Shown: one piece after another, positions 28,115 through 31,373 of the stretch
Layout: every line of letters begins with the position of its first letter
Position numbering within the stretch: position 1 is the first letter of the stretch
NCBI RefSeq assembly: GCF_018866325.1
Contig: NZ_CP076457.1
Span: forward strand, 6,235,001 to 6,299,000
Reading direction: 5' to 3'
Length of the DNA: 64,000 bases
DNA from: Streptomyces sp. YPW6
GTDB taxonomy: Bacteria; Actinomycetota; Actinomycetes; Streptomycetales; Streptomycetaceae
Program-made: the position numbers and the translations under genes
The notes under the pieces: generated by a model
Seen by the model: only the letters and a program-made list of their open reading frames with translations
What the model was told of the DNA's origin: nothing
Database searches by the model: none

Positions 28115-28148
28115 GTACGGCCGTACGCAACGTTGGGTACAGTCGTAC
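28115..28148. promoter_or_regulatory. Two GTAC-N4-GTAC operator-like palindromes
   Basis: gtacggccgtac at 28115-28126 is a perfect palindrome, and gtacagtcgtac at 28137-28148 repeats the same arms. The copies start 22 bases apart, two helical turns, and the second ends two bases before the SMR pump ATG. This is the pattern expected for cooperative binding of the TetR protein encoded downstream. Confidence 0.7.
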
Positions 28149-28150
28149 AC

Positions 28151-28477
28151 ATGGGATACGCATACGGACTGCTCGCCGGCGCCATCGCGGCGGAGGTGGC
28201 CGGGACGACGGCCATGAAGTACAGCGAGGGCTTCACCCGGCTCTGGCCCTCGCTCGGCACCGTGGCGGGCTACCTCATCGCCTTCACCCTGCTCGCCCAG
28301 ACCCTCAAGACCCTCTCCGTGGGCACCGCGTACGCCATCTGGGCCGGCGTCGGCACCGCGGCGGTCGCCCTCATCGGGATCCTGTTCCTCGGCGAGTCCA
28401 GCAGCCTGGTCAAGATCGCGGGCATCGCCCTGATCGTCGCCGGTGTCGTCGTCCTGAATCTGGGAGGGGCGCACTGA
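28151..28477 (+). CDS. SMR family multidrug efflux protein (EmrE/Sug type)
   Basis: 108 residues with four membrane helices, the full length for the family. The essential Glu is in AIAAEVAGTTAMKYSEGF (E15). TAYAIWAGVGTAAVALIGI matches the third helix, and the family dimerises in the membrane to export cations with proton exchange. ATG 28151 has no ribosome site, so a leaderless mRNA is likely. It overlaps the TetR start by one base. Confidence 0.93.
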   Translation: MGYAYGLLAGAIAAEVAGTTAMKYSEGFTRLWPSLGTVAGYLIAFTLLAQTLKTLSVGTAYAIWAGVGTAAVALIGILFLGESSSLVKIAGIALIVAGVVVLNLGGAH

Positions 28478-29049
28478 TGGCCCGCCGGTACGACCCGGGG
28501 CGGCGGACGCGGATCATCGACGCGGCGCTGACCGTGATCGCGGCCGACGGCATAGCCGGGCTCAGCCATCGCACCGTGGCCGCCGAGGCCGACGTGCCGC
28601 TCGGCTCGACCACGTACCACTTCGGCTCGCTCGACGAACTCCTCGTCGCCGCCCTGCGTCGCTGCAACGAGAACTTCGTCCAGGCGCTGCGCTCCAGCGG
28701 CCTCTTCGCCGCGGACGGGGGCGCGGGGCGGGGCGCGGAGGGCGCCGGTCTCGCGGCGGAGCTGACCCGGCTGCTCGACCGGTGGTTCGCGGGCGAACGC
28801 GGAGCGATCGAGCTGGAGTACGAGCTCTACCTCGCCGCCCTGCGCCGCCCCGCACTGCGTCCCGTCGCCGCCGAGTGGACCGAGGAGGCGGTCGCGCTGC
28901 TGTCCCGGCGCACCGACCCGCGGACCGCGCGGGCCCTCGTCGCCCTCATGGACGGCGTCTGCCTCCAGGTGCTGCTGACCGGGGGCACGTTCGACGCGCC
29001 GTACACCCGCGTGATGCTGGAGCGGATCGTCGCGGGCGGCGAGGCCTGA
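28477..29049 (+). CDS. TetR family repressor
   Basis: 190 residues from ATG 28477. The N-terminal helix-turn-helix is IIDAALTVIAADGIAGLSHR then TVAAEADVPLGSTTYHFGS, typical TetR spacing (residues 10-55). The C-terminal ligand-binding part is all-alpha. It is coupled to the SMR pump (TGATG), so it most likely autoregulates the pair through the GTAC-N4-GTAC sites. Confidence 0.9.
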   Translation: MARRYDPGRRTRIIDAALTVIAADGIAGLSHRTVAAEADVPLGSTTYHFGSLDELLVAALRRCNENFVQALRSSGLFAADGGAGRGAEGAGLAAELTRLLDRWFAGERGAIELEYELYLAALRRPALRPVAAEWTEEAVALLSRRTDPRTARALVALMDGVCLQVLLTGGTFDAPYTRVMLERIVAGGEA

Positions 29050-29094: not shown

Positions 29095-29985
29095 TCACGA
29101 TCCCGCCCGGTCCGCCCCGCGGCGCACCGCTTCCAGTGCCTCCCGCACGCTCGCCCCGATGTCCGTGATCGGGTACAGCACCTCGCGGACCGTCCGCTCC
29201 CGGTCCACCACCAGCGTCAGCCGCTTGAGCCTGCTCACGCCCGCCGCCCGGAACGTCGGCAGCCGCAGCGCCGCCGTCAGGGCCAGGTCGGCGTCCGACA
29301 GCAGCGGGAAGCGCAGCCCCTCCTTCTCCGCGAACGCGCGCTGCTCGTCCGGGCGCTGCGCCGACACCCCGTGCACCGTCGCGCCCGCCGCGGTGAACTC
29401 GGCCAGCTGGTCGCGGTACGTGCACGATTCGAGGGTGCAGCCGCTCGCCCCCGGAATCCCCGCCCAGCCCGGCGGATAGGCGTCGCGGGCGGCGTAGGCG
29501 CTGGGAAAGCAGTACAGGACGGTGTACGGGGTACCGGCGACCGGGTCGTGGAGCCGGCCGTCGTTCCCCGGGAGCAGCAGCTCCGGCAGCCGCGTCCCCT
29601 TCAGCGCCCGTACCCGGGCGGCCTCCTGCGAGGCCTCGGTCGTCGTCGCCATCGTCTCCCCTTCTCCCAGGACCCAGGTGTCGCCCCAGTCCTGGAGCGC
29701 GATCAGCACGGGCAGCAGGGCCCGGCCGCGCGGGGTGAGCCGGTACTCGTAGCGGACCGGGCGGTCCTGGTACGGCTCCCGTGTCAGCACGCCGGCGTCG
29801 GCCAGCAGGCGCAGCCGTTCGGTCAGCACCTTGCGCGAGACGCCCAGCTCCCGCTGGAGCGCGTCGAACCGGTGCACTCCGCGCGCGGTGTCCCGCACGA
29901 TCAGCAGCGTCCACCAGTCGCCCACGACGTCGAGCGCCTGGGCGATCGAGCAGTCGGCGTCGGCCAGGCGGGTGCGCTGGGGCAT
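29095..29985 (-). CDS. HxlR-type regulator fused to a peroxiredoxin-like domain
   Basis: 296 residues from ATG 29985 with GGAGGA upstream. Residues 1-115 are an HxlR/MarR-like winged helix with the conserved redox Cys12 in ADCSIAQALDVVGDWW. Residues 130-296 are an AhpC/TSA (BCP-like) thioredoxin fold. There Cys183 and Cys188 in SGCTLESCTYRD align with the peroxidatic and resolving Cys of GCT-x-E-x-C proteins. The protein may sense and scavenge oxidants in one chain. It faces an MFS gene across a 25-bp dyad. Confidence 0.88.
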   Translation of the reverse strand: MPQRTRLADADCSIAQALDVVGDWWTLLIVRDTARGVHRFDALQRELGVSRKVLTERLRLLADAGVLTREPYQDRPVRYEYRLTPRGRALLPVLIALQDWGDTWVLGEGETMATTTEASQEAARVRALKGTRLPELLLPGNDGRLHDPVAGTPYTVLYCFPSAYAARDAYPPGWAGIPGASGCTLESCTYRDQLAEFTAAGATVHGVSAQRPDEQRAFAEKEGLRFPLLSDADLALTAALRLPTFRAAGVSRLKRLTLVVDRERTVREVLYPITDIGASVREALEAVRRGADRAGS

Positions 29986-30069
29986 GGTCGTCCTCCGGTT
30001 GTGGCCGCTGTCCGCCCCGCCCACCCTGCCGGGGCCCTTCGGTTGACCCCGATGGAATCATGCTGCCAT

Positions 30070-30094
30070 AGTCCGTTCCCATAAGGAACTCACT
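30070..30094. promoter_or_regulatory. 25-bp dyad, likely HxlR operator
   Basis: AGT-N2-GTTCC-N5-GGAAC-N2-ACT from 30070 to 30094 lies in the middle of the 149 bases between the divergent HxlR-peroxiredoxin gene and the MFS gene. HxlR dimers bind such inverted repeats, so it could control both directions. Confidence 0.65.
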
Positions 30095-30134: not shown

Positions 30135-31373
30135 ATGGTGCGCGGAGTGCCGAGGACGGTACGGCTGCTGGCCCTCGGGGCGTTCCTCAACGCCGTCGTC
30201 AGCTTCACCTTCGTCTATCTCTTCGTGTACCTCGTCGGGCCGCGCGGCCTGAGCGTCACCCAGGCCGGAGTCATCAGCGGCGTCGGCGGCATCGGCCTGG
30301 TCGCGGGGAACTTCACCGGCGGCTGGTTCGGCGACCGGTTCGGCCACCGCCGCGCCCTGCTGACCGGCGCCTGCGTCAGCGGCACGGCGCTCGTCGTCCT
30401 GCCCCTCCTGCCGGTCGCCGCCCTGTACGGGGTGCTCCCGGTGGCCCAGTACGCGGCGGGCGTCGTCCGGGCCGCCAACGCCGCCCTCGTCGCGGTCTCC
30501 GTACCCGAGGGCGGAAGCCGCCGCCAGAGCTTCGCCCTCTTCCGGTTCGCCTCCAACGGCGGCTTCGCCATCGGCCCGCCACTCGGCGCGCTGGTCGCCA
30601 CCCGCCTCTCGTACGACTGGCTCTTCGTCGCCGACGGCCTCGGCACCCTGCTCTTCGCGCTCTACGCCGCCCGGATCCTGCCCGCCCGCGGCAGCGCCCA
30701 CGCGGTGCGCTCCCACGACCCGGACGCCCCGGGCCTCTGGCGCGAACTGCAGGCCAGGCCCGCCGTCCTCGTGCTGCTCACCGCGATCGTGGTCGTCGAC
30801 ACCGTCTACCGGCAGCAGTACTCGACCCTGCCGGTCTTCCTCGCCGGCCACGGGCACACCACCCAGCTCTACGGCTGGCTGCTCGCCCTCAACGGCGGCG
30901 TCATCCTCTGCCTCGAACTGCCCGCCGCCCACGCCCTGCGCCGCCGCGCCCCGCTCGGCCTCGTGGGCACCGGACTCCTGCTCGTCGGGCTCGGCTACGC
31001 CGTCCTCATCCCGGGCGCGGGCGTGCTCCTCGCCGTCACCATGATGCTCTCGGTCACCCTCGGCGAGATCCTCTACAAGACCCCCGCCACCGCCTATGTC
31101 GCCGACCAGGCGCCCGGCCACGCCCAGGGCCGCTTCCAGAGCCTGTACGCCGGTGCGTCGATCAGCGGGCAGGTGCTCGCCCCGCCGCTCGGGGGTGCCC
31201 TGTACGCGGCGGCCCCCGCGCTGCTGTGGCCGGTGTGCGCCCTGCTCGCGGCGGCCGCCGGGGGAGCGGTGCTGGCGTCGCGGCGGCTGCCCGGACCCGG
31301 GGAGCGGGCGGAGGCGGCGGGAAGGGGGCCGCACGCTGAGACCGGTTCGCCCGAGCGGGCCCCGGCCGGTTAG
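30135..31373 (+). CDS. MFS transporter
   Basis: 412 residues from ATG 30135 (RBS ggcggggga). An in-frame ATG 12 codons upstream lacks a site and overlaps the regulatory region. There are about 12 membrane helices. The MFS loop 2-3 motif is [16 protein letters not shown] near residue 63, repeated weakly in the second half ([16 protein letters not shown]). The presumed role is drug or metabolite efflux under control of the divergent HxlR-type regulator. Confidence 0.88.

Follow-up and report, generated by a model that had tools for sequence, protein, structure and literature searches.

An HxlR-type regulator of Streptomyces fused to a peroxiredoxin-like domain, with a candidate internal translation start at the domain junction

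Does a regulator that carries its own peroxiredoxin-like domain work as one chain that detects, transmits and removes an oxidant, or does its gene also yield the domain on its own? Bacterial peroxide sensors such as OxyR use a thiol of the regulator itself, eukaryotes oxidise their regulators through separate peroxiredoxins, and Orp1/Gpx3 and Yap1 of yeast form a peroxiredoxin-to-regulator relay. The question is raised by a gene of Streptomyces sp. YPW6 that lies in the stretch of 64,000 nucleotides analysed here (the window), which the initial annotation had described as an HxlR regulator joined to a peroxiredoxin-like (Prx-like) domain, with a single chain performing all three tasks and controlling the divergent MFS pump.

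The gene occupies 29095..29985 on the minus strand as a single open frame of 296 amino acids and a stop, and begins at ATG 29985, whose own Shine-Dalgarno (SD) sequence pairs with the anti-SD at -9.5 kcal/mol. Its front half contains an HxlR winged-helix domain (residues 20-105; 29671..29928, minus strand), recognised by Pfam PF01638 with an E-value of 1.7e-25 and 89.1 bits against a curated cut-off of 20.8, and phmmer aligns it with solved HxlR-type regulators, among them 4gcv (E 2.7e-27) and HypR/YybR 4a5m (residues 11-103 on 13-106); 2f2e is a further match by sequence. The back half matches PrxQ/BCP proteins in sequence searches and includes an AhpC/TSA domain of the PrxQ/BCP-like kind (residues 181-268; 29182..29445, minus strand; PF00578, E 1.5e-14) within a fold that spans approximately residues 124-296. 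In the predicted model of the fusion (mean pLDDT 76.1, pTM 0.70, with low confidence, pLDDT below 50, at residues 1-17 and 173-183), a structure search superposes residues 124-292 on BcpB over 152 residues with a Z-score of 21.5 and an rmsd of 2.2; the structural matches listed are Prx entries, the HxlR half being identified by sequence (Pfam, phmmer). The fusion is not an accident of assembly, because the best 80 relatives align from residue 1 to at least residue 276. The proposed architecture is thus borne out, with one frame, both Pfam domains, and the start and stop as first described.

To follow the cysteines through the family, the best 80 of 177 encoding stretches found in the genome collection were retained and, with the window, make up 81 near loci; deeper sampling gave 103 unique near sequences, derived from 110 clade-A coding sequences, which together with 24 divergent fusions form a set of 127, from which two loci with a broken or missing HxlR half (L162 and L163) were excluded. 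The window protein has cysteines at positions 12, 159, 183 and 188 only. Cys12 (29950..29952, minus strand), the N-terminal cysteine of the HxlR/DUF24 family, Cys183 at the peroxidatic position (29437..29439, minus strand) and Arg255 are each invariant in 127/127 fusions. The GCT-x-E-x-C pair singled out by the initial annotation is present, and all three of Cys12, Cys183 and Cys188 are kept in 81/81 near loci; Cys188 at the resolving position (29422..29424, minus strand), however, is a cysteine in 97 of the 127 fusions and is replaced by Arg, Gly, Ala, Ser or Leu in the other 30, so that these lineages do without it in the fused protein.

The surroundings of Cys183 also depart from the textbook arrangement. 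Peroxiredoxins carry an active-site motif Pro-x3-Thr/Ser-x2-Cys, in which the Thr canonically stands three residues before the peroxidatic Cys. The window protein does not fit it, having Ala180 in place of the Thr and a preceding insert that separates Pro161 from Cys183. Across the 127 fusions, residue 180 is most often Ala (108), followed by Thr (14), Ser (3) and Gly (2), and the 14 separate relatives compared have Ala at this position as well and retain the second Cys. Because Ala mostly replaces Thr in fusions and separate relatives alike, the Prx half is, judged by its sequence, a PrxQ-related subfamily with an altered active-site loop and a putative peroxidase role. It shares with PrxQ/BCP proteins (BcpB, E. 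coli BCP type) the fold, cysteines at i and i+5, and Arg255, but differs from them in the insert, the Ala, the fused regulator and scores that fall short of the NCBIfam equivalog cut-offs (43.8 vs 140 for PRK09437; 42 vs 260 for PrxQ).

The loss of the canonical Thr in 108/127 fusions and of Cys188 in 30/127, together with an adjoining gene that often encodes an MFS or other transporter, would suit a different reading, in which the Prx half is a redox-dead or ligand-binding relic with a merely structural or dimerisation role, and the HxlR half answers a drug-like or electrophilic ligand and regulates the pump. This reading sits badly with Cys183 and Arg255, which stay invariant even in proteins that lack Cys188, and with a Prx fold that the predicted model matches over 152 residues, and we consider it improbable.

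At the other end of the protein, Cys12 was proposed to be a sensing cysteine of the HypR type. By phmmer alignment it does fall at approximately Cys14 of HypR, but an N-terminal Cys was also found in 13/13 of the separate HxlR proteins compared, so that Cys12 is general to the HxlR family and does not mark out the HypR type. The second HypR cysteine, which forms the intersubunit disulfide and which we take to be Cys49, has no counterpart, and a HypR-type two-cysteine disulfide switch was rejected, since the next Cys after Cys12 is Cys159. Passages of two reports describe sensing by the N-terminal Cys in DUF24 regulators (PMC6943732, PMC7835342), and for HypR, YodB and CatR of B. subtilis the former names HOCl, quinones, diamide or allicin as the agents sensed (PMC6943732). 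In HxlR formaldehyde sensing, as a passage of the latter describes, a Cys-x-Lys pair makes a methylene bridge (PMC7835342). A sensor of formaldehyde or aldehydes like HxlR of B. subtilis would have the domain family and the N-terminal Cys in common with the fusion, but helix 1 lacks the Cys-x-Lys pair and reads Cys12-Ser13-Ile14 instead; sensing of this type was rejected, and we give it hardly any weight.

A further feature is an in-frame ATG at the domain junction, which is new here and was missed by the initial annotation. It stands at position 29652, codon 112, and opens a nested gene (29095..29652, minus strand) for a predicted free Prx-like protein of 185 amino acids. From codon 107 to codon 112 the junction runs GGA GAA GGG GAG ACG ATG in the window, and just before the ATG lies an SD-like stretch, GGGAGAAGGGGAG (29656..29668, minus strand), with -8.8 kcal/mol to the anti-SD. 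Either codon 111 or codon 112 is an ATG in 79/81 near loci and, after the deeper relatives were added, in 87/103 unique near sequences, which leaves 16/103 without one.

The synonymous codons at this site are biased. In the 81 near loci, 97% of the Gly107 codons and 98% of the Gly109 codons are GGA or GGG, yet the commonest Gly codon of these fusion genes is GGC (901/1,736). Third-base changes between A and G account for 19/24 changes at Gly107 and Gly109 vs 33/207 in a comparison set of 13 further Gly columns (Fisher p 4.7e-10, in a test that assumes independence of the parsimony changes and is biased towards columns with a purine to begin with), and changes to a pyrimidine for 5/24 vs 98/207; the underlying tree was built without the codons under test, and the counts omit the 13 deepest of the 103 sequences.

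The binding energy is less telling. Mean SD energies are -8.84 kcal/mol at the internal start, -9.07 at the annotated start and -4.09 (sd 2.89) in the background, but the internal mean is equalled or undercut at 7% of all codon positions, and the four codons 124-126 and 226 average lower than codon 112, so that SD energy alone is non-specific and proves little. Five neighbouring genes served as a control; they contain 12 conserved internal Met columns, none of which had a mean SD energy of -7 or lower. Local folding is weaker at the internal start (-6.3 vs -14.2 kcal/mol per 40 nt, in 40 of 87 loci), with the caveat that purine-rich stretches fold weakly in any case. Codon 125, which is GTG or ATG in 79% of the 103 sequences and has a stronger SD energy than codon 112, was also considered as a start and rejected, its GTG share (0.81 of 84) being ordinary within the range of other Val columns (0.09-0.98).

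Because a ribosome-binding site and an ATG are conserved inside the gene and the synonymous codons there are biased, the near relatives, the window included, probably also make the Prx-like half alone, from ATG 29652. Evidence of separate translation was named at the outset as counting against the one-chain view, and such evidence was found here at the level of sequence signals. The view itself, a single bifunctional regulator-peroxidase chain in which the internal ATG and purine stretch are leftovers or chance, draws on both domains being intact, on the Cys183/Cys188 pair in 81/81 close relatives, on the weak specificity of the SD energy taken by itself, and on the 24 divergent fusions (L138-L161), which are read without an internal start: none has a junction ATG, and the sequence there is mostly GGC GAC GGC. 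Against it stand the codon bias, the 12 Met columns that lack a comparable SD, and the recurrence of the same layout in a second family described below, and we hold it to be rather unlikely. Cys188 is kept in 87/87 coding sequences with the internal start vs 10/40 without it, an association that runs in a consistent direction and fits this reading, but is not significant over only 4 independent pairs and is confounded by descent.

That second family consists of MerR regulators fused to the same Prx subfamily. The genome of the window carries one such gene (G000:C1:216877-217839; locus L002 1441-2406, minus strand), and the fusion occurs in 21/199 genomes of the genus, the own genome counted (E≤1e-60). 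Its junction has an ATG in 16/21 cases and a GTG in 1/21 within a linker that is otherwise variable; 12 of these 17 starts have an SD of -7 kcal/mol or lower and 5 a weaker one, while 3/21 have no start codon at the junction and 1/21 has only a GTG elsewhere. The MerR-Prx fusions thus repeat the layout of the HxlR-Prx gene, with the Prx subfamily behind a DNA-binding domain and, where the two domains meet, an internal ATG preceded by a ribosome-binding site. They are unlike it in that the DNA-binding domain is unrelated, the Prx part forms a separate branch in the tree, and the Cys pair is kept in 21/21.

Upstream of the fusion gene, the proposed dyad was confirmed at exactly 30070..30094. It has the operator-like form AGTnnGTTCC-N5-GGAACnnACT and reads AGTCCGTTCC-CATAA-GGAACTCACT in the window. 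Within 350 bp upstream, 77/81 near loci have a match with at most 2 mismatches over the 16 specified positions, vs 0/1,620 shuffled upstream regions, the best match having 0, 1, 2, 3 or 4 mismatches in 45, 24, 8, 2 and 2 loci, respectively. The dyad is conserved across lineages: among the divergent loci, 23/26 have a match with at most 3 mismatches vs 0/1,300 shuffles, in a scan in which the upstream stretch of L163 ran from a wrong start codon. By eye, two dyads are apparent in some divergent loci, and GTTnC/GnAAC dyads resembling that of the window precede several separate HxlR genes. The 7.7-Mb genome contains a single exact copy of the dyad, and no other site comes closer than 2 mismatches. 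A regulon beyond the locus was rejected, with 1 exact dyad and 7 sites in total at no more than 3 mismatches vs 1 for a backward control pattern.

The dyad overlaps a predicted sigma-70-type promoter, TTGACC-18-CATAGT (30043..30072, plus strand), whose -10 element shares the letters AGT with it and which points toward the divergent MFS transporter gene (30135..31373, plus strand; PF07690, E 5.8e-36). The likely start of this gene is ATG 30135, placed by where the alignments of relatives begin, within a frame that is open from 30099. In a scan with a simple pattern, the promoter was found in 59/68 loci that have the MFS gene vs 4/13 loci that lack it or have only a remnant (Fisher p 8e-5, which ignores descent), leaving 9/13 of the latter without the pattern. 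The dyad with at most 2 mismatches is present in 68/68 loci with the MFS gene vs 9/13 without, and all four loci at 3-4 mismatches are without it; hence the dyad mostly persists, somewhat weakened, where the fusion gene alone remains. The overlap with the -10 element, and the way promoter and dyad track the MFS gene, place this candidate dyad well for repression of the pump.

Control of the pump, as the initial annotation proposed, has a conserved operator-like dyad on the MFS promoter in its favour. Among the best 80 of 177 loci, an MFS homologue more than a remnant lies beside the fusion in 67; in the other 13 the search found none (L019, L033, L041, L044, L047, L053, L063, L079, L083 and L086) or a remnant only (L028, L036 and L056), and the pump is therefore a non-obligate partner. 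Ten divergent neighbours in other lineages, picked from 26 loci for Pfam analysis, comprise six MFS transporters, one ABC-2 permease, one O-methyltransferase, one enolase and one protein with no match. In one branch of the fusions (L152-L154 and L156-L157) the divergent neighbour resembles an enolase, and in another (L148-L151) an O-methyltransferase; the Pfam analysis covered one of each, and one or two dyads separate the neighbour from the fusion. On the other side of the fusion in the window, convergent with it, a gene for an SMR (small multidrug resistance) transporter overlaps one for a TetR regulator (28133-29046, plus strand); of the 80 loci, 70 have an SMR homologue and 69 a TetR homologue close to the fusion.

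Streptomyces is the named source of 79 of the best 80 of 177 loci with the fusion, the remaining one being an 'Actinobacteria bacterium'. At E≤1e-45 and with the own genome counted, the fusion was found in 114/392 genomes of the genus and, in counts that take in broken or HxlR-less matches (G792, G877 and G981), in 65/197 genomes of the order, including a second family, and 17/345 of the class, 5 of them outside the order. These matches place the fusion in several other actinobacterial families. At the level of the phylum (E≤1e-20), some match occurs in 104/396 genomes; among those listed, full-length matches come from 3 genomes, all of this genus, and the remaining rows extend over a single half or slightly beyond it. 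Whichever half the tree is built from, a branch (SH-aLRT 95 and 97) sets the 25 fused rows apart from the others compared, namely 23 other Prx rows and 13 rows of separate HxlR proteins, and the fusion therefore likely arose once.

A few copies deviate. In L163, from a Streptomyces genome (G792:C1:2498595-2509346), the HxlR half is lost, and the Prx half, which adjoins an MFS-like frame, is retained with the dyad core 70 bases before its likelier ATG, a natural variant that fits with production of the Prx half by itself. The copy at G877:C2:1320164-1320772 is broken by two in-frame stops. Where the front of the HxlR half would be expected, L162 (G981) has sequence overlapping the divergent MFS-like frame, through rearrangement or assembly error. 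The fusion gene of L141 (G405), otherwise GC-rich, contains about 24 consecutive T, so that seven Phe stand where the recognition helix should be, probably as a sequencing artefact.

The idea that one chain detects, transmits and removes the oxidant thus survives in part: the fusion, Cys12 and the Cys pair are there, while the Ala at the position of the peroxidatic Thr, the loss of Cys188 and the internal-start signals weaken it. The account that we favour, with somewhat better than even confidence, is an autoregulated, probably thiol-responsive repressor of the HxlR type that senses through its Prx-like domain, its message in the lineage of the window also giving the domain alone. The reduced fusion dimer would bind the dyad at 30070-30094 and block the MFS promoter and probably its own. 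Oxidation of Cys183, Cys12 or both would abolish binding, as the invariant cysteines and the known DUF24 regulators suggest, and derepression would raise the amount of pump and fusion message. Use of the internal ATG 29652 would in addition supply the two-cysteine protein of 185 amino acids, which may clear the oxidant and reset the switch. Lineages without the internal start are mostly also without Cys188, and there the fused domain perhaps serves sensing more than turnover.

A bolder and more speculative version, which we regard as possible but doubtful, adds a redox relay in cis with a built-in off switch. In it, peroxide would oxidise Cys183, Cys12 would resolve it and DNA binding would end, while the free Prx from the internal start would remove the oxidant and stop the signal. 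How strongly the cell responds would then depend on the balance between the full-length and the nested product, and the arrangement would have arisen twice in Streptomyces, once with HxlR and once with MerR. A Cys12-Cys183 disulfide would explain why both residues are invariant (127/127) while Cys188 is expendable, but Cys12 is conserved outside the fusions too, and the relay is therefore put forward as an option and not as the main claim.

The favoured account has partial precedents. The fusion resembles HypR, YodB, CatR and QsrR in its HxlR domain and its N-terminal Cys, has a candidate operator dyad beside its own gene, and differs from them in the C-terminal Prx-like domain, the nested start and the lack of a HypR-like second Cys. 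The logic would be that of Orp1/Gpx3 and Yap1 if a peroxide-reactive thiol oxidises the regulator, with both predicted here to share one chain. A shorter product from inside a longer gene is known from genes of the HrcQ type, HrcQ being an example of a gene with an in-frame internal translation start (PMC8553256); here the shorter product is a predicted Prx within a regulator gene. No HxlR-peroxiredoxin or MerR-peroxiredoxin regulator was among the literature matches listed, in a search whose coverage left out most subscription journals.

If the favoured account is true, a regulator with its own Prx domain and a free enzyme from one message would make a compact sensor-effector circuit, and the relay idea could be tested within one small protein. 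An annotation that shows a single fused protein may conceal another product of this gene, and the same may hold for the MerR-peroxiredoxin genes.
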